Part shown: positions 20,878-53,225 of the stretch, piece after piece
How the letters are laid out: every line of letters begins with the position of its first letter
Position numbering within the stretch: position 1 is the first letter of the stretch
Assembly (NCBI RefSeq): GCF_000189635.1
Contig: NW_002476216.1
Span: forward strand, 62,001-126,000
Direction of reading: 5' to 3'
DNA from: Tetrahymena thermophila SB210
Taxonomy: Eukaryota; Ciliophora; Oligohymenophorea; Hymenostomatida; Tetrahymenidae
Length of the DNA: 64,000 bases
Notes under the pieces: model-generated
Databases searched by the model: none
What the model saw: only the letters and a program-made list of their open reading frames with translations
Told to the model about the DNA's origin: nothing
Translations under genes and position numbers: made by a program

Positions 20878-22479
20878 TTTTTCAATTTAAAAGTTTTTTT
20901 TTAGGTTTATTTTTTGTTATTTTTTAATTTAATTAATTTTTATAATTCGTTTGCTTATTGAATATTTAATATATAAATCAAATAAGCACACAATAAAAAT
21001 CAAATTAGAATATCTAAACAAATTATAATTGCTGAAACCAAGAATAGAATAAAACCAAATTAGAATATTAATATTTTTGTTTATAAGATCATTTTGTCTA
21101 TTCTTTGCAAATAATGCTTTTAGAATTTGAAATAAATACTTAAAATATAAATAAATAAATAAAATTTATATTATAATATGATTTTTTTATTTATTTCAAT
21201 AAGTTCAATTCAATCTTGAAATAAAAAATAAGTTTTTATTAACAAAATCATTCTCTAAATAAAATACTTTTTTCAATAAAGCTAAATATTTAGAATATTT
21301 AGTTAATATAATGCTCAATAAATTTCCCGATAACAAGTAATTAAAATTCTAATTTGAAAAATTGACGTATTAAAATTGATAATTAGTCATATTTTATATT
21401 TAAATATTCTAAATTTAAATTTAATTATATTAGAATATATTAAATTTTCTCATTTAATTATTTTATTCTATTCCTAAATAAAATGTGTAATGCATAAATA
21501 TTCCATATTATTTTATTCAAAAATAGAGTAGACTTAGTTTATTAGCAAACACAAATATAATTGAATGTGTGTTTATAACCTTATCTACTTTTAAATACTG
21601 AGGATGTTTTTGAATAAGACATTTAAAAAGTATTTATTTAAATATTCTTTTATTGGTATATTATAAAGCATAATGTTAAATTACTTAGCTTGATTTTGTT
21701 AAGCATAATTAACAAATATTGCTAATCCTGTAATTAAAATATCACGAACTGTGCAGGTACAGATGGTGATATTTCATTTAATTTTTATGATTTTAAGCTT
21801 ATTTTACACTTTATATTTTTTAATTTTTTTATAAACCTATTTTTATTAAATTTTGAAAATTTAATGCCTTTTCTCAAATTTTGAAAGTAAAAAATGAAAA
21901 CAGAGAGTGAAAAATTCTTTTTACACATTCATTTATTAATTTTCTAACAAGATGTAAAATGTGAGGAAAAAAATTACAATCTCTACAGTATTTAATTTGA
22001 ATAAATATTTGTATTTATATTTTGCTAATTAAAGATGATATCTAAAAATTATATAAACTGCTTAACCAAAAATTTAGAAATACTTTAGTTATTTAGAAGA
22101 AAAATCAATTCGGAGCATTTAATTTTCAGATTGCTGAGGTAAAAATTAAATAGTAAAATTAAAAATGAAAAAGACTAAGAAAAAATAAATAATTATATAA
22201 TAGAAACTATGTTATTCTAGTAAGCAAAGATTATTTTGAATCTTTGCTTGAATTCAACTTCTTAAATTCAATTCAATTCAATTTAGTTTAGGAGAGTGTT
22301 AAATTTTAAATGGTTTATTTGATAAATAAAGATGATAAGAAATTGACCATATTTTAATATAGATAGAAATTTGAATAAGAAGTAACTAATTATGGTTTTA
22401 TTTATATTTGATAAATGTATAATATAATAATAATAATTTATCTTTTTTACACTCTAATTTTAATAAACTATTTTAAAAC
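20878..22479. other. Intergenic with one dispersed hairpin repeat
   Basis: 1.6 kb of AT-rich DNA, 5' flank of the CBM20 gene and 3' flank of the carboxypeptidase gene. The only structured item is the repeat at 21717-21813. Confidence 0.6.
21717..21813. repeat. Dispersed hairpin repeat, copy 1
   Basis: About 97 bp nearly identical to 52651-52757. It starts TATTGCTAATCCTGTAATTA and contains an imperfect inverted repeat (AATTAAAATATCAC against GTGATATTTCATTTAATT) around a short loop. It could be a small non-coding RNA, a MITE-like remnant or a regulatory/replication element; neither strand is clearly coding. Confidence 0.75.
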
Positions 22480-25400
22480 TCAAATATAAACTATTTTAAT
22501 TGGTTGGAAAACTGTTTATTGATTAATATTTTTTTCATCAACAACTACAGTATTGCCTCCATTGTTATTTATGTTGCTTCCTTCGAAATCTCCTTTTGAT
22601 TAATCTTAAAACAATTTAATTCCATTCATTAAATGTTAATTTGTTGTTAGTTGTTTACGAACTGTTCTAGATGCAGATTGTGGTTTTATTATTTTTTGTT
22701 ATTTACTTAAAGTATTGTTTATTGAAGCAAAACTATTATTTAGACTGTTGGTGGTAGAGTTAGCAGTAGGAGGTACTCCTGTGAAAGCTTAATCAAATTT
22801 AGTTTTTTAAAGAGATTTATAATCACAAAAGGTGGGCTAGTAAAACTAATTCTCATGCAAGCTTCTATTAGATTACTTATTTACATCGCTTTAATCTGGG
22901 AGATTTGTGAATGTTCCATTAAATATATCATATTTTTACATCTTAAAAACATATTAAGATATATCATTAGACTTTGATCTCTGCTACTTTTCTACTATGT
23001 TTGACTAAGGAGGCGATTAATTATACAGCTGTTATTGTTGCTTCATGTTTTTAGAACCACCTCTTGTTAATGTTTAGCTCCCTTCTTGCACTAAAGATTT
23101 ATTTAAGGTGTCGTACTAAGAGTTATTACCAGAATATCCATAAATCCAGTCTGGAGTTTGAGTATTCATAATTGTTCTTAAAATTCTTCCCAGCTAAGAT
23201 TTATTCGTGTTATTAATTGAATCTCTGATGCCATTGTATACAGGTAAGGAAGAATCTATAACTGTGTTTTCTATTGGTTAAGGAATAGCTTAGTTGAATT
23301 TGAATTCTCTAGGAGAGATAAGCTGTGGTTTCTTCTCTATTTTAGATTGATTTTCAGCAGCTCCGTTATTATAACTTTGTCGTAATTTCATTTAAATTAC
23401 TCTATGCGTCTGCTAAGGATTTCCCATTTATTGCCTTACTTAGCTATTTTCTCTTAATTTGCGCAGTTTTGTTTCCCTCAAACTGTTTTTATATTTATCA
23501 ATATTTGGGAAAGCATCTGGAACTTTCAGAGGAAAGTAAACGAACTTAGGCTCTAGTACAGTCATATTTTTCATTTAGCTTTAGCTCTCTTTTTCAGCTT
23601 TTTAATTTTTCTAATCTTTAACAAAGTTGTATCCAGTTTGATGAAAGCTATTTCTATTTATATAAAAAACATTTGTTAGGTAAAGTAAAAGTATTTCATA
23701 AAGATTATTTAAATCATAAAAAGATTAATCAATTTTAATTTAAATATTTGGTTTTTTAATTAAAATTATATTGCTTGTATTCATTCATTCATATTGCCTG
23801 TAAAGTTAATTTTATTTAATTGCAATTATTTTTTCTAGATATATTAAATTATCAGATGATATTTACTTTATGACGGTCCTTGAGCGTATGGGGGAAGGAG
23901 CTTTATCAAAGTTGAATGCTTTTGGTTTCACTTCGCTAGAAGAAGTACCTTACTATGAATTTATTTTTTTTTCAGGCGATTTGGTCATGAAGTTAGATTG
24001 GGTTTTTCTTTTTAGAATTGTCTAAGTTTGACTCATAGGATCTTTAATTTATGATTGAGGCTAAATAGTAGCAACTTCTTTTGTATTTTTGTCAAGGAGT
24101 TTCTTTGATTTTTTTGTTTTACTTGTGAACATTTTTTTCAATTCATCATCACTCATATTATCTCCTGATGGCTCACTATCTGAACCACTATCATTCTTCA
24201 TACCTATGTCTATATTTTCAGGATTCTCATATAGTTCATCAAGGAATATTTTATTAGATGTTAGATTTTATTAACTACATACTTTTGAGAAAAATGATGG
24301 TATTTCTATTTTTTTCTGTTAAGTTTTATTTTCTTATTCTAAATTTTATTACTACTACTACTAATTGTCTTGCTATTCTTCTTGTTAATTTAAATATTGC
24401 TAGAAGTTTGCCATTTAAAACTTCATTAAAATTGATTAGCAAATAGAATGTCCCATTTCTTTTAAGTGTTCAGCTGTAAAGTGTGTATTCAAATAGCTAG
24501 GTCCACAAAAAGAGGATTCAATAGTGTAAATATTTGGTATTCCCAGTGATTTATACAAAGCAATTCTTGCAGTTCCTTCTCTGTTTTTTTATACTTTGAA
24601 ATTGCAGTCCTTTTAATTTTAAATTATTTATTATTTTTACTAAAAATAAACTTTTTAAAAATATTTTTTACTTTAAATGAGAATGAAGAGTTTAACTTAG
24701 AAATAATAAATGGAAATTCTCTACATTCAAAAGGTTTTTTTTTGTCATGGCAACCATAGGCGAATACATTCATTTTTCTAGAGTGCCCGTGGAGATCAAT
24801 GACCATAGCGATATCATTTTTTTGTTTAAAATCAAAAATCATTTATTTTGTGTAGTAAATTTCAGGATGCAGAGTTTAATTTGGATTTTTCCATCTTCTA
24901 TTAAGATCGCATCCAGCTAAAGAACAACGATAATTTCCATGAATAACTCCATCAGGGTTCATCATAGGAATGATCTTAAAGATAAACTTTTCTCTAAGAA
25001 AATGTGCTTCTTTTGTATTTTCTAAATAATTATTAAATAATTTTATTTTAAATACAAATTAAATTTTTTGTTGAGTTCTCATTATTTATTTGAAAAAAAA
25101 AAAATTTAATTCAATTTAATCAATTATAATTTCCATATTCATTTTATTTTTAATTTAAAAAGATTCTTTAAAAATAAATTACATAGTAAAAATTCTATAA
25201 TTCCCTCCATAATATAGCTTGAAACTGTTTCACCTGGATGTACACGAGCAGATATAATAACTCCTTTCCTTTAGGACATTTCATCTTGAATATTTTTGCA
25301 TGGATTTGTAATAGTGATTAAATCTAACTTGTTCCCTATCAAAGTCCTGCACAATATTTTTTTATAAATAAATTAGTTTTTATATGGATCCATTTCGCAT

Positions 25401-26932
25401 TTATGAAGAAACTAATTTAATTAAGTGTAAGTGTAAGGTATATTGTAAGCAAAGAAAACCTCATCGTCATTATACTCAAAAGTATATTTAAATGTAAGCG
25501 TGTAGTAGTAGTTATCATTTTATTTTACTATGTTATTTTTAACGTAACCGATATCGGTGGCTCCTTTAAACCAACCAACTTTCGTCAGGTCATACTTCTT
25601 TTTAGAAAAAATAGAGATCTTCATGCCTTCATTGAAGAGAGATCCATTTTTATAGAAGTTAACTATATTAAATTTAACTGATTGATTCCTATGAGTTTTC
25701 TTTACACTAAAAAAGAACCATTAGGTGTATCCCTTGGTATTTATATCATTTTGCAAAAGCAAATTGTATTCATCAGATGATTTCATTGAGACTATTGATA
25801 GATTTCCGCTTTCAAATTTACTGTCGAAATGCAAAACTTTTTATTTCTTTGTTAAATTTTCTTTAATCATTTATTCAAGTCTCTCCTGTTAAGTAATTTC
25901 TGAGGCTTCTTTTGACTTAAAATCTGAATAAGGCTCACCATTCCTGATTGCACTCATTTTGTATAATGTACAAAGAACCTAATTATTGAGCAATGGATTT
26001 TTCAAGTAAACAATATTGTTTTCTTCTGTAAACATTTAGTATATAAATTATCTTGTCTAACTGCCATCAGAGTTAACAGAAATTCCAGGGTTGTTGTTTC
26101 CTAGTATGTAGTTTGTATTGATAGCATTTATATTTCTGACTCCAAGAGGTTCTTTTCTTTACACTAATTTTTGAAATTCTTCTGGATTTTCAGTAGCCAT
26201 ATGAAATGATTCTAAATATGAATTTACAATTTGCTATTCCTTGAATTTTAGAGAATAATCATAAACACTCTTGAGCTGCTCAATTCCTCTTAACTCCCTT
26301 TTTGCTATTGGATTTGCTTCAGGTAATTAATCTAAATATGTTTTTTTTACTCTTTTTATTTTCTTTACTTGCTAGTTAGTACCAGTTTAGGAGATATAAT
26401 TTAATTCAAAATAACTTAATTCATCTCCTTCATCCAGACTATCATTATCATAGTCGTCTACTGCTAATACGCTTGCTTCCTCTTTGCTGAAGAGCTCCTT
26501 ATCAATTTATCCAGAATTAAAACCCTTCGATATCATAAATGTATTATTTAAAACAGTTAGATTTGACTTATCATTTCGAGATTCTATTTATCCTCTCGAG
26601 CTGCAAATATTTCTATTAAAACTAGCATTCTAAATGACATCTTCTGACTAGTTCAACACTTTTTTCCTCATTGCAAAGCTGCTATTTGCACTATTCTTTT
26701 ATTTCCTTTATTAAGCAGTGTTCTTAGCAAATTCCTCCTCATATTTTAATGTATTATCACTTTTAAATTATTCATTTAATGCATCTTTATTTTGTTAATT
26801 AGTCTCTGTATTTAATATTGGAGATTCATTGTTTTTGCTGCTATTACTACTCTCTTTCTCTTGCATTTCAGTCTTAGAAACTGCATCTTAATTCTAATTG
26901 CTAATCAAGAAATTGTTAATATACAAATCCAT
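22480..26932 (-). CDS. Cytosolic carboxypeptidase (CCP/Nna1-like, M14 family)
   Basis: ATG 26932, exons 26932-25183, 25021-24672, 24609-23867 and 23653-22480, TGA 22482-22480, 1338 aa. A disordered acidic N-terminus of about 250 residues precedes the CCP N-domain ([19 protein letters not shown], then [20 protein letters not shown]) and the zinc carboxypeptidase domain. Zinc-site motifs are visible: HPGE at about 565-568, then [20 protein letters not shown] with NRRW, and [10 protein letters not shown] with H at about 661. [17 protein letters not shown] and [10 protein letters not shown] follow, which carry the family's catalytic glutamate. CCPs remove glutamates from tubulin tails and side chains, which suits a cell with many cilia; the exact substrate is not readable. 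A 550-residue Q/N/S-rich C-terminal tail is unusual and may localise it. Confidence 0.93.
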
Positions 26933-29067
26933 TTAATATATATCGATGTATCCTAATCTATCTATTTAAATATTGATTGATTGATTAATTAAACAGCAGC
27001 TCTTTTTTTATAAATCAGCAAATTGATTATGTAAAATATTTAATAAATTTTCAACAAATGATAAAAAATTAAGCTTTTGATCAAGCAAGAACCAGTCTGA
27101 ATTTCTACAATTGAAACAAAATCTGCTAAAGTTTCTTCAAATTCAAAGACTAGCACTGAATATCTCTCTCTATTTATCAAACAAATTTAGATTTTAGAGG
27201 GGAATATTAGTAAATTAGTTAAACCCTCTATTTATTATTTGTTAATTATTCTGCTAATACTTAAAGTAATTAGAAAGAATTCGTTTAATACAAACAAAAA
27301 AAAAATTGATTAATTATTTCTTTTTTTATCAACCCAAAAGATTCTGCTTGCTGCTCACTCTTTACAAAAATTATATGGTGAATAATTGGATAAAGTTTTT
27401 TTATTTTGAAATGACCATAACATTTATATAAGCACTAAATATTAATAAGATTTATCATTCATTCACTTGTTATTTTACAGACTACTAAATAAATTTGATT
27501 TCTATTACTTTTCATTATAATTGTTAAAGAGTTCTAAGATTTTTATCTATTCGCACTAAATGTAATCTCATACATTCGCTATTAACCGTAACTTTCTGAA
27601 TCATTAATTTCATATTGTATATTTATATAGCCATTTATTTTATTATTATTATTTTAAATTAAATTGAAAAATTGTTAATACCACTAAAAACCATATTAAC
27701 TAAATATTTCTTATTTGCTATTTGTTTGATATTTATTTATTCATTAATCAATCATATTTCTATTGAAATAAAATAAAAATATATTTCTTTCAATTTTCAA
27801 TCAGCTAAATTGACATTAAATAAAAACAAATCAACTCAACAATATCAAATAATTGTTTTGTTGATGTACTTCATATTTAGAATATATATTGTTGCCTTTC
27901 ATTATTTATTTAAAATCAAAATTTATGAAATGTTTATTTCTTTATTAAACTAAGAAGGAGTATAAAACTATTTTTTTTAAACTAAACTAATAAAAATATT
28001 CATTTTATTTAATAAAGAAAAGCAAGAATTTATAATTTGACTTTGTTGTTTTCTTAAAATAATTTATCATATTAAAAATAGATCATAAAATAACAAAATT
28101 ATTTTACCAAATAAAACAATAAACCATTTAAAAAATTTGTATGCACTATCATAGACTAAAATATTTATTTTATCAATCCTACATAATAAAAATACAACTT
28201 ATTTTTTTAGAAATTATATTAAAACATATTTTTAAAGATGGCAATATAAATTTTATTTAAAAATAATCAATTTAAGTAAATTTTACTTTTATTTTATTTT
28301 TTCTTATTGCATTATATAGTATTTTGAGATGATTTATTACCATAATATCTCGATTTTATGGTTCTAATAAATATTTATATATTTACCTAAACCAAGTTAT
28401 GAATAAAACAAACATTTCCTCATCTTCTTACATACCAAATAAATTTTATAAAATTATTCAATTATATTAAATAATATTAAAAAAATATAATAACTAATTT
28501 TAATAAGTGAGTAATAATAAGGCTAAACACTTTAAAATTATTGTAGATAAACATCTAATTTCCTAAATTTGAACAAATGGTAAATTATGATTACCATAAA
28601 TTTCAAACACAAAAATAAATAAATAAATAAAAGCTAATTTTAAAATATTAATAAGAATGATAAAATAATATGAGACATTTATTGTTTGTTGCTTGCTTTC
28701 CAAAGGCATCAAAAATAAAAGTAAAGTATAAAATAAATTTATATTTATTTATAAATATTAACTTATTGTGAAAAGAATTAACGAATTAAAAGACAATAAT
28801 AACTTACTTAAAGAATTCAAACTAATCATGAGAATATATCAAACATATTTCAGATAGTTTCAAATAATTTATTAATTTGATTTCTCTGATAATATAAAAT
28901 TTATAATTAAAATATGCTTATTTTATTAATAAAGAATATTGATTTTGTAGGCAGGCCTCTGCAGTAAACTAGCTAGATCCATCCATTCCAACATTTTTTT
29001 AATAAAGAGAAGGAAGCTAAATAAATGTTTTATTATTTTTTTCGTTTTTGTTTTGTTTATGAATAGA
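26933..29067. other. Intergenic
   Basis: 2.1 kb, the 5' flank of the carboxypeptidase gene and 3' flank of the coiled-coil gene. AT-rich, with short TTTA/AAAT repeats. No supported gene. Confidence 0.6.
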
Positions 29068-39085: not shown

Positions 39086-42000
39086 TCAGTCTTGAAAGTT
39101 AATTGTATTTAGCATACTTTCAATATCTTTACTGTTGATAGGTATTTTTTTAGCATCTTATATTAAATCACTCCATTCTTTTTCTTCAGAATATTGTTCG
39201 TTTGCAATTTAGTTGTTCTTTTATGTTAAAATTTCAATTGAACCCATCGGATCTTGTTCCAGTATCAATTATTTTTATTCTATCATATAGCTTATCACGA
39301 ACTTATAGAAGAAACTCCAACCTTCTTGGATCATGTTCTCATAGAATATATCCTAATTTTATTTATATATTATTTATTAATATAAAATTTATTTAAATTT
39401 AATATTACCAAGTATTTAAGAGGTATCATCATGCCAAATTAAGAAAATAGCCAAGGAGTTATATACATATCAGGCTTTATTCCACTTTCACTCTAATATA
39501 ATTATTTATTTAAAATATTAATATTAAATATGATTTCTATATTAATTACTAAATGGGAATATAATTCAGGATCAATCTTTTCAAGAATTTTCTCTAGAAT
39601 GTAGGAGTGTTTCTTCAACCCAGGCAAATCTTTTTTTATTTTATTTGAAAATTTTAATAATTAATTTATGATTTTAATGATTATAATTTTACTTGGAAGA
39701 TAGATGTCTCTCAATTCGAATCTCTCAAATGTATTAACAAGAAGCCAAAAGGCAATATATTCTTCTGAATGATACAAAAAATGTGCGGCTATAAAATTTA
39801 TTCCTTGAACATAGCCAATTTAAGGATCATATGCAGCAAATGAATAAAGAATACTCTCTAGTTACTCTAATCCAGAGCTAATTTTATTTTAATTGTTCTC
39901 TATTTTAGAAGGAAGACTCTGACCTTAACTACTCTAGGAATCATTCAAAGGCTAGAAAAACTTTAAATGAGGATAAGTTCTTGTAATATCTCTCCTAATT
40001 TACTGTAAAACTGAAGGATCAACTACACTGCTTCTGGTTTCTTTTATTTAATTATAGAGGGTTTTAAGGCTATCTAAATTTTCAGGGTAATTCCATTAAA
40101 GCCATTTTTAAGCTCTACTGCATGTTTAGTAATCTTCTAATCCTTCATCACAGTTGCATTAATCTCTTTTATCTCCTCCTCTAAAAGTCTTTACAACTAA
40201 ATTAATAATGTTTGTTTTTATTGTGTCCATCAATGATTTTTATCCGCTACCATTTTAGATGGCGTTCATATAATTAATATTTTCTTTGACCTTACTATTG
40301 TTATTTGCTTCAGATTATTAAATCGCTTGAGCAACATTTATGTTCTTTATTTGCTATTAATTGGTATTCTACGCATCTGCTGTTTAGCTACTTTAAACAT
40401 CTTTCATAAAGCCATTTTAAGATGCTTTTATATTATTTTAGTTTTCTTTTAAGCTTTATTTTGAATCTTGAATTTTGTTGGATTAAAATTATATTGTGTT
40501 AGTTTAAAATTCATTAATTGTCTTTGTTTGAGTTTCGCTAATTGTGTTTGGTACGGATTGCTAAGTTGGAATTCTTTCTAATTTAGAAATATCTTCTTTT
40601 TTTTGCAGGAGTATTTCAGTTTATTTATTTTCTTTTTCAAATTATTTTGGCAAATTTATTGAAAGCCTTTAGTCTTTACCTGCTGTTGTATCGTTTGCGT
40701 GAGAAAGAAAATATTTTTTATCATTATTAATGTTTATTTCATTTTGAGTAGTTTAATATAAAGCATTTTTACTATTTTTTGGAATTGTATTGTTGGTTTT
40801 ATTAAAGGAATAATTGTAGTGTAAGACAGTATCAATATCATGTTTGAATTAATTGGATAGACAATTAAATGCATTTTGTTCTGGTTAATATGATTATTAT
40901 ATTGTTTAGTGATGGGTTTAATAATTGTTAAAAGATTCATGATTATTAAGCTACTTGCTATAGTCATTTTTTACATCAGATATACTTTTTTATGCTTTGA
41001 TTAAGTCTACCTTGTTACTATTTTTTACATTTAATCCAGCTCCTTAATCTTTAGAAGTTATTTATATACTATTTTTGGTTGATTAATTTTTTTAATTCAA
41101 ATTCTTTTTAGAATATTTTCCATTTTAGTAGCTTGTGTTGCTCGCTTGAGATAGACTTTAGTGTTTTTTGTTTTAAATTATTAGATTTTCTTATTAGTAA
41201 ACAGAGTTTTTGTTTGTGCTATTTCGCGAAGAGTGCATGCTAATGTTCTTGTTGGCATTGCTTAAATAAATATTCGATTTAGTTGAGTTTAATGAATTAG
41301 TGTGAGAAAGAATATTGCTATTTTATTTTTAACTAAGTACTTAATTATAATTTTTACAAGATTATTTCTCTTTTGAATTACTATGAGAAATTGTTTTATT
41401 TTGGTTATTAATCACATTTAAGTTATTACAATTTATTTTAGAGTTATTTTAAACTAAGACATTAGTGATTTACTCTTATAGGTTTTATTTATAAATGTAA
41501 TTTTAATTGTTTCCACTCAGATTGTTATGATTATTCTGCTATGATAAGCTACTTTACTCATAATTGTTTGTAGAAATTCTTCTAATGCTACTGTTGGCTA
41601 ACTACGGCGCAAGAACCTAGTCGTAGTAATTTAATAAATCCTTATTATTTTAACTTAGGCCAGAATTACAATTGTATCTAAGTCTAAACAGGCTAGATTC
41701 TCTTCTATTATCTTAACTTACTTCAGTGATTTAATGAACTCCAGCTTCTGTCTTCAAGGGAGAAAACTAAGTCATACAGGTACTATGCACACCATTGAGT
41801 TTTTTACTTTAATATCCCCACTATGAATGATACAAGTAATCTTCTTTATATTTATCGCTTAAATGAGTGTGTTGTCTTTCATTTAGAGAACTAATATTAT
41901 TTTATTAATTGAAATACCTAGTCTGATCATATATATTTCTGGGAGATATGACCTATTTAGAGTTTGAATAAAGCTATTATTCAAGATGATTTTCTACTTG

Positions 42001-43332
42001 TTCTTCTTCTTTCTGTGTAATTTTTTGCAAATTTAAATATACTTATTATTAATCTAATATAGACTACAGTTGTTCGTTTTGAATTTTTTGCTAAGGGCGA
42101 CAATATTAATCTTAATTATTCATTTATTACTCTGATTATAATTTTAATTCTGCTTTTTCATTTTAATTAAACTGAAATTTATTATAATTTTACAATAATT
42201 CATTTTAATTTTGCAGACATTTATTTTAATTTGAAAGACATTCATTTTAATTAGACAGACATTCATTTTACTTTGGCTAGAATTCATTTTAATTAGACAG
42301 ACATTCGTTTTTATTAATTTATGTTTAAACTTTGTTAGCTTTATCATAATTTTTGCACATATCTTACTGATTTTGATGAATCATTTGTTGTTCATCTTTA
42401 TGAGCTTGCACTTAATTGATATTAAGATTCTATTAATTTGAGTTTAAAAAATATTCACTTTGCTGAATTTGTTATTACTAACTTTTTTAATTGTTAACGC
42501 TGCTTAAGGATTTGTTAATTATTTTTCTGCTTATTTACTAGTTGTTGATTTGCTAGTTTTCTTCACAATTTGCGACAGTCTCGCATTTAAAATCAAAAAC
42601 TTAGGATTCTTCCCCTCTGCAGGTATTCATAGTTAAGAAAGTATCAGAAAGCACGTTGCTTTGAATATTTCCTATTATTTATCCTGATTATTCATTAGCA
42701 TTTTTATAGCCATCAATGCTTATCTTTTAATGAGGTAGAGAAGTGTGAATTATCTTTTTCTTTGAAGGAAAAAATTCTAACTCATTATTTATCTTGTACT
42801 TTTTGTTGGGTGAGACAGGTATCATGTTAACTACAGTTTATCCTGGTATCAAATGCAAGTCATCGTCTTCCCTGCAAAAAAAGCTATCATTTTAACCTTC
42901 TTCGAAATCATCATCACTTATATTTGTAGCATGCGCTTAAGTCTAAAATCTTTCACTGAGTTTAGGTTTAAAATCTTTGCTTCGTTGCGATAGCTTCGAA
43001 GCATTTTATTGAGAACTTAAGCTATTCCTTACCTTGCTTTATTTGACTATTTTACTCATGACAGAGTAGCTATTGGTATAATTTATATTTTTTGAGAAGT
43101 GGAGTGAAGATGAAGGCTGAGTTTTCATCCTTGTTTGCAGTTAATCTATTTAATTTAAAGGAGCATTCTTTGAAAGAGAAGATATGCTTTATGGCTTTTA
43201 TTTATTTTAGTGGCAGCTCTTTTCAGTTAGTAAGTAGTTGGAAATGGAAGATTCTGTGCAATTGATTGTTTTAACATGCACATCAGAATCTGCATTCAAA
43301 GAGCTATAATGCTGCTTTTTTTTTGAAAACAT
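39086..43332 (-). CDS. TBC-domain Rab GTPase-activating protein with giant Q/N-rich N-terminus
   Basis: ATG 43332, introns 39630-39692, 39493-39549 and 39353-39408, TGA 39088-39086, 1356 aa. A TBC domain fills about residues 1085-1330. IRRDITRTYP supplies the arginine finger motif, YVQGINFIAAHF the glutamine finger (YxQG), then IAFWLLVNTFERF, KPDMYITPWLFSQF and EGWSFFYKFVISYM. These are the ordered TBC signatures, and both catalytic residues are present, so Rab-GAP activity on membrane traffic is expected. Everything before about residue 1050 is low-complexity Q/N/S sequence in a single 3.6-kb exon, with a heptad tandem repeat near residues 340-400. The unusual feature is the size of this tail, about four times the catalytic domain. 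All three introns lie inside the TBC domain. Confidence 0.92.
42167..42320 (-). repeat. 21-bp tandem repeat coding for NECLSNQ-type heptads
   Basis: Within the TBC gene about seven imperfect 21-bp units encode heptapeptides such as NECLSNQ, NKCLQNQ, NELLQNY and NKFQFNQ. The two NECLSNQNE units are nearly identical, which suggests recent slippage or unequal crossing-over. The cysteine every seven residues is lost in the outermost units. Confidence 0.8.
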
Positions 43333-52231: not shown

Positions 52232-53225
52232 AATTCTAAATTCATTTTTAATTTCTTTCTTTCTTTGAATTAAATTGTCTTGTTTGATTTTATGTTATAT
52301 AAATTACTTTATTTTTTAACAAAATCAAAAAATTTCAATTAAAATGCTAATAAATAAATAAAATATTATTTGTGGAAATATTTATTTAATAATTACTATA
52401 TAAAAATATCAAGTTCTTTTAAATTTTATTGATGATATCTATCTATCTATATTTAATTTAAGCTTCTAAATTAATAATTACTAAGAGAAAATTTGAATGT
52501 TTTATAAAATCATAATTAAAAAATAAAGAGTATGTGTGTTAAATAAAATACCTATTTAACATATTTATAATTTAATATATTTATCATTAATTAAAACAAC
52601 AAATACTTTTCATTTTTTAATAATTCATTTTAATTAATTTAAATTCATTATATTGCTAATCCTGTAATTAAAATATCACGAACTATGTAGGTATGTAATG
52701 TACAGATAGTGATATTTCATTTAATTTTTATGATTTTAAGCTAATTTTACACTTTTTCTTCTTATAAAATTTTGGGCGAATCACCCTATTTTTGCCATTC
52801 ACCTCTTTCACCTAAAAACCTGTATATTAAAAATTAATCAAATGTATAGTTTTTATAAATATTTCTGATAAAATAATTAATTTTATAATAAGCATCTTAA
52901 ATTTTAAATAGGTAAAAATGAATGATTTAGTTGTATTTAGTTATTAAAAAGCTTTGAACTGTATGCCGTTTAAAGGCACTTAACTGAAAAAAAAGGCAAT
53001 TAAGCAAAAAATAAAAAATTAGCAATTATTTTGTAAATATGTTTCTATATAACGAATGTATGAATGAATATATATATGCTCGCATGTATGAATGTATATA
53101 AAAATGTTTAAATATAGTTCTACTTACAATTTAAAAAAATAACATTTATTTTAACTAAGCAATAATTTTTCAGATTTTTAATCTAAATTAGGAGAAAAGT
53201 AGTTGTTTTATATTATTCAAATATA
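52232..53225. other. Intergenic with dispersed hairpin repeat
   Basis: Holds the second copy of the hairpin repeat (52651-52757), followed by a GC-richer patch at 52770-52820 (GGGCGAATCACCC). TG/TA-rich ATGTATGAATG tracts lie at 53055-53100. No gene seen. Confidence 0.6.
52651..52757. repeat. Dispersed hairpin repeat, copy 2
   Basis: Same element as 21717-21813 in the same orientation, with a 9-nt insertion in the loop (copy 1 GTGCAGGTACAGATG against copy 2 ATGTAGGTATG...TACAGATAG). Both stem arms (AATATCAC and GTGATATT) are unchanged between copies, whereas the loop differs. Confidence 0.75.

Follow-up and report, generated by a model that had tools for sequence, protein, structure and literature searches.

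A hairpin shared by two intergenic regions of Tetrahymena thermophila: probably a transposon end left in the macronucleus by programmed DNA elimination

A hairpin-forming sequence that occurs twice in the window (the stretch analysed here: 64,000 nucleotides of T. thermophila SB210, contig NW_002476216.1, positions 62,001 to 126,000) is probably the outer end of a DNA transposon, left in place by programmed DNA elimination of the remainder; judged from sequence, this reading is given a probability of about 0.7. The proposed course of events has three steps: 1) a TA-bordered DNA transposon with terminal inverted repeats would move in the germline (micronuclear) genome; 2) programmed DNA elimination would cut out most of the insertion while the somatic nucleus forms; 3) one transposon end would stay in the soma, next to the excision junction. 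The hairpin belongs to a repeat family whose outer border is sharp and whose two types of end share a single terminal repeat; both ends occur together in a ~560-bp unit at two loci with unrelated flanks, and most other copies stop abruptly on the inward side.

Two copies in the window

The first-pass annotation had reported near-identity over about 97 bp between 21717..21813 and 52651-52757, two regions said to have nothing else in common, with unchanged hairpin arms and a loop differing by 9 nt. Aligning 21716-21844 with 52650-52793 bears this out: the near-identity is there, the arms (ATATCAC/GTGATAT) are unchanged in both copies, the 9-nt alignment gap sits in the loop, and beyond the element nothing is clearly common to the two regions. 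Single-base mismatches lie between the arms and toward the inner end. Chance is excluded by the 81 genomic places that match a 29-bp left-end pattern with at most 3 mismatches, against none for the reversed pattern. The 97 bp do not form a unit: they belong to an element that extends further inward and has a sharp border at one side only; copy 1 (21717-21929) is longer than copy 2 (52651-52755). The features are these:

21717..21929, + strand: left-type transposon end, probably retained; copy 1, covering element positions 1-228 in an alignment with the both-ended unit at locus L007
21717..21728, + strand: terminal inverted repeat TATTGCTAATCC, copy 1
21731..21780, unstranded: subterminal palindrome, copy 1 (inverted repeat, arms 21731-21752 and 21759-21780)
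21929..21930, unstranded: abrupt inner stop, copy 1, from the alignment; putative excision junction
52651..52755, + strand: left-type transposon end, probably retained; copy 2, covering element positions 1-96 in the alignment, its loop longer by 9 nt
52651..52662, + strand: terminal inverted repeat TATTGCTAATCC, copy 2
52665..52723, unstranded: subterminal palindrome, copy 2 (inverted repeat, arms 52665-52684 and 52704-52723)
52755..52756, unstranded: abrupt inner stop, copy 2, from the alignment; putative excision junction
52774..52826, unstranded: C-rich stretch, then TATA at 52823-52826 (~68 bp past the copy 2 stop); candidate boundary signals read from the sequence, their types and distances as given in passages of PMC6547420

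The 12-bp terminal repeat has just these two exact matches in the window. As to the surroundings, the outer flank of copy 1 (21300-21654) has a 76% paralog on a different contig, at C334:115791-116148. Elsewhere in the window, ciliate-code open frames on the minus strand match a TBC (Rab-GAP) domain (39331-43332) and a cytosolic carboxypeptidase-like protein (25139-27088).

A dispersed family with two kinds of end

The genome searched (101 Mb in 445 contigs) is macronuclear; one contig listed, C4, carries GGGGTT arrays (telomeres) at both ends. An initial whole-genome search yielded 115 candidates, 40 of which were scored, all of them matching at E <= 1e-30. A right-end pattern matches 83 places (control 0), and 35 of these, ending in TTAAAATA, represent a third palindrome type. 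The exact terminal 12-mer TATTGCTAATCC occurs 207 times, against 14 for its reversed pattern. Among the first 22 of these places listed, two were already-known copies and the other 20 were judged by eye: ten are element ends (including L080 and L065, where the third palindrome type stands behind an identical terminal repeat) and ten are chance matches or gene sequence. A preference for insertion beside tRNA genes was considered and rejected, one tRNA gene having been found among 47 loci.

When 30 loci are compared together with as much as 1.5 kb of surrounding sequence, homology begins sharply at the 12-bp terminal repeat TATWGCTAATCC, with the palindrome next; outside TATWGCTAATCC no sequence is common to the 30 flanks. 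The second, right-type end has the identical terminal repeat with a different palindrome beside it. Two loci, L007 and L015, hold both ends in a ~560-bp unit that is 99.8% identical between them, lies in unrelated flanks, and runs from TATAGCTAATCC to GGATTAGCAATA, exactly between the inverted terminal repeats; the TA at both of its borders falls within the common sequence. A relative at 72% identity (L053) also has both ends, and L037 keeps most of the interior at 94%. The unit is a short non-autonomous transposon, MITE-like. The first-pass annotation had named identity with a known MITE as a finding that would count against its own proposal; in anatomy the family is MITE-like, and no named family matched it.

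Pairing of ends was surveyed at all 164 places found with the left- and right-end patterns. Within 6 kb there are seven inward-facing pairs, no outward-facing pair and two tandem pairs. Spacings of 530-555 bp account for four of the seven: L007, L015, and two third-type pairs (C158:135777/136317 and C176:249792/250347) that make up both-ended units of their own, ~0.56-0.58 kb long. Three are spaced 3.6-5.4 kb apart. In one of these, on C220, a left-type and a third-type end 3.6 kb apart enclose an open frame of 626 residues. It matches no transposase (its best Pfam match, ERGIC_N, falls below its cut-off) and looks like a host membrane protein; as the frame is apparently a host gene, this pair is probably two independent ends.

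Solo ends and abrupt stops

The majority of the copies examined consist of one end alone, with an abrupt stop on the inward side. Among the first 30 loci an inverted partner (at most 1 mismatch) was found in the fetched flank only at L007 and L015; none of the copies seen keeps both ends around one junction; and the remainder of the ~560-bp unit was not found within ~2.5 kb past either stop in the window. L008, L010 and L011 match L007 without a single difference over 107-117 bp, after which unrelated DNA follows. The remaining left-type copies of the first comparison stop at positions 92-228 and six further ones at 64-193; the inward homology of left-type solos is variable and reaches ~230 bp at most. 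Right-type stops fall at 197-208 in all 11 of the 38-copy set; those found later fall at 189 (L061), 178 (L072), 202 (L073), 159 (L074), 194 (L078), 120 (L083) and 115 (L108), and the right-type stop is therefore not fixed. In one right-type copy, L107, divergence starts inside the palindrome. Four solo ends have an unrelated repeat in their vicinity, about 75% identical and apparently tandem (L010 19-527, L026 2-506, L027 5-574 and L062 221-546).

From the sequence of these copies we infer that the stops are excision junctions and that the missing part is present in the germline. The most serious alternative makes the solo ends ordinary decayed copies: germline deletions would have shortened them, and micronucleus and macronucleus would hold the same shortened form. 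A+T-rich intergenic DNA often undergoes deletion, which suits such decay, and so does a truncated copy shared by two paralogs; against it, copies that are 97-100% identical to L007 stop at many and different points. This, together with the concentration of boundary-type words at a published distance (below), makes ordinary decay distinctly unlikely. Some observations count against the elimination reading: both ends around a junction were seen in no copy, later right-type copies depart from the stop at 197-208, and there are the ~145 bp at L072/L073 and the words common to the two borders, both described below.

The paralogs in question, L072 and L073, carry the same truncated right-type copy. 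They belong to a tandem gene family of nine copies (C15:11484-116243) with a right-type end upstream in two and absent in seven. Compared with the seven insertion-free paralogs, the insertion starts approximately where the right-type end stops, and on the side of the terminal repeat another ~145 bp pass before homology is regained; the family should be useful for dating the insertion. A second pair of loci, L013 and L018, has a common outer flank and different inner stops. Paralogous C59 loci, compared with them as candidate empty sites, align as far as the terminal repeat and differ in the other flank. Elimination explains the different stops; recombination might do so as well.

Boundary-type words beyond the stops

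According to passages of PMC6547420 (Lin et al.), the eliminated segments of T. thermophila have boundary signals on their outer sides, arranged as inverted repeats: TACCNT lies ~62 bp away and a TATA group ~65 bp away. An exploratory look at 39 copies, 50-80 bp past the stop, found GGTA in nine, namely five of the 12 right-type copies and four of the 27 left-type ones, and the opposite orientation, TACC, in 1 of 39. Twelve copies outside that set (including L073, which as a paralog of L072 is not independent) have no ANGGTA at 50-80 bp, a negative result that favors germline decay.

All 1024 5-mers were then counted in the interval 45-85 bp beyond the stop and compared with the far sides at 100-215 bp together with the outer flanks. 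(A technical note: the 50 copies counted are 53 minus L073, L107 and L066, they include the exploratory and 12-copy sets, and the interval was chosen after the exploratory look and PMC6547420.) In this unrelated DNA the top words are ACGGT, TACGG, GGTAT, TATAT and ATATA, with ACGGT observed 5 times against 0.06 expected, GGTAT 9 against 0.97, and TATAT 32 against 12.3; all nine far-side occurrences of ANGGTAT fall in the 40-100 bp bins. The enriched words are inverted forms of the TACCNT (~62 bp) and TATA-group (~65 bp) signals as those passages of PMC6547420 give them. The enrichment is good but not conclusive support for reading the stops as elimination junctions; the TACCNT-type signal is missing from most copies. 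Within the window, ACAGTAT, one mismatch from the boundary word, lies at 21984-21990, ~55 bp beyond the copy 1 stop.

Two further comparisons bear less weight. On the element side, ten of the 12 right-type copies have TACC at a distance of 61-70 bp from the stop, a post-hoc pattern that is not relied on and that counts as one observation because the right-type copies share ancestry. All-against-all BLAST of the far sides is swamped by A+T composition, the outer-flank control being equally noisy. The far side of L013 ends in TATACCGTAATTCC..., which belongs to a second dispersed family, found at 23 places with at most 3 mismatches (control 0). That family starts TATACCGTAATTCCTCATTAATTAAGGAC, with TACCGT, a boundary word known from print, among its opening bases. 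One junction can therefore join the ends of two repeat families, and TACCGT is in this case the terminus of a transposon-like repeat.

What kind of element?

Ciliate TA-bordered eliminated sequences have the consensus TAYAGYNR, which we take TATAGCTA to fit. These two features, the TA border and the consensus, point to a mover of Tc1/mariner type; the assignment rests on them because no match to PF13358 (DDE_3) lies within 18 kb of an end, for all 164 pattern places and the first 100 listed of the 207 12-mer places. DDE_3 has eight matches in the genome, six of them above the cut-off. The best (Tc1/mariner-type; C116:487051-487479) is in the somatic genome and has no TGA; it is, for that reason, perhaps a domesticated gene.

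Truncation at variable points behind one constant end would also be produced by target-primed reverse transcription, the solos being 5'-truncated retroelement copies with GGATTAGCAATA as their constant 3' end. The target-site duplications expected of that process are absent at the solos, where 4 of 38 copies have at least 4 matching bases abutting the element and 3.0 are expected, and the same terminal sequence stands, inverted, at both ends of the ~560-bp unit; the mechanism is rejected, and a retroelement is highly improbable. (Words of at least 7 bases common to the 15 bp adjoining both borders are slightly too frequent: 6 of 38 copies have one, where 1.9 would be expected.)

Helitron ends are 5' TC and 3' CTRR and lack terminal inverted repeats. 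Here both ends are inverted copies of one 12-mer and neither has 5' TC or 3' CTRR, so that a Helitron-like rolling-circle element inserted between A and T is scarcely to be believed in, even with hairpins adjoining the ends and an A just beyond the terminal T in 33 of the 38; a TA target accounts for those borders equally well. Fragmented Helitrons do occur in the T. thermophila germline, according to a portion of PMC5182062.

There remains the RNA. The first-pass annotation had offered a structured RNA gene or a hairpin-forming DNA element, citing a conserved stem with a variable loop; its second term holds, as a dispersed transposon end, and its first finds no support in Rfam, upstream sequence or covariation. 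Every Rfam family stays below its gathering score in the window (the best sub-threshold match, mir-317, scores 14.9 bits against a cut-off of 56). Nothing upstream is common to 30 copies, and no common promoter is therefore visible. The covariation check that had been proposed, made on 27 distinct copies (34 of 35 copies used) and 21 pairs, gives 2 double-change cells, 7 single consistent changes and 20 that break a pair; the other strand gives 2, 9 and 18. Stem changes are not compensated, and in other copies the palindrome is mutated or deleted. Copy 1 does fold better than its shuffled versions (z -2.3 on one strand, -2.6 on the other), which would suit an RNA; copy 2 hardly does (z -0.75 and -1.1). 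In one right-type copy, L048, the palindrome loop runs the opposite way from that of L007 and L038, as though recombination or the resolution of a hairpin had turned it round; this flip is a DNA-level event and not one of RNA. A multicopy structured RNA gene with a varying loop is thus very hard to credit. On the preferred reading the palindrome belongs to the transposon end as subterminal DNA, perhaps as a site for a transposase or a boundary protein.

Known systems and meaning

Retention of transposon ends has been described in T. thermophila. In portions of PMC5182062 (Hamilton et al.), 95% of putative transposon sequence is said to be removed from the macronucleus, and the retained sequence to be biased, in some instances, toward the ends, a bias attributed there to incomplete excision. 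Passages of a review (PMC5666084) repeat the end-retention finding and list Tc1/mariner among the germline transposons. The hairpin family is probably a new example of this published phenomenon. Literature searched as text did not show the family, which may be unnamed in print. One can think of it as an apparent orphan RNA hairpin turned elimination marker, readable from somatic sequence alone, with its inner stop the likely excision junction.

In part of PMC6698652, Ltl1, which controls boundaries, is described as having a Tc3-like DNA-binding domain, and its authors speculate on that account that boundary sites descend from transposon termini. The retained ends may themselves be elimination boundary signals, and Ltl1 or other domesticated, transposase-like proteins that bind ends may be their readers, a suggestion we offer as possible and rather doubtful. 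If it were true, the inverted repeats which in Tetrahymena set where an eliminated segment ends would be the terminal repeats of the very transposons removed; the published TACCNT would be one such terminus, its far-side form TACCGT starting (TATACCGT...) the second family of 23 places. The 81 left-end and 83 right-end-like places make the speculation testable on a defined family.

How closely does the family resemble what is known? 1) As a non-autonomous, MITE-like DNA transposon it is recognized by the terminal inverted repeats that flank a short dispersed unit at L007 and L015, most copies being one-ended. 2) Tc1/mariner-type MITEs are likewise short, with terminal inverted repeats that start with TA; the present family differs in having unlike palindromes at its two ends, no linked transposase, and partial somatic retention. 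3) In the T. thermophila case of PMC5182062, as here, ends and not interiors stay in somatic DNA; the bias is described across curated families, and the portions drawn on name neither this family nor its palindromes and stops. 4) The flanking signals given in passages of PMC6547420 (TACCNT, TATA, G-rich) are inverted and lie ~62-65 bp outside the junction, and the same words are enriched beyond the present stops; there they flank mapped eliminated segments, whereas the junctions of the present family are putative. 5) For the boundaries controlled by Ltl1, a descent from transposon termini is speculated on in part of PMC6698652, and the present family would be a concrete candidate.
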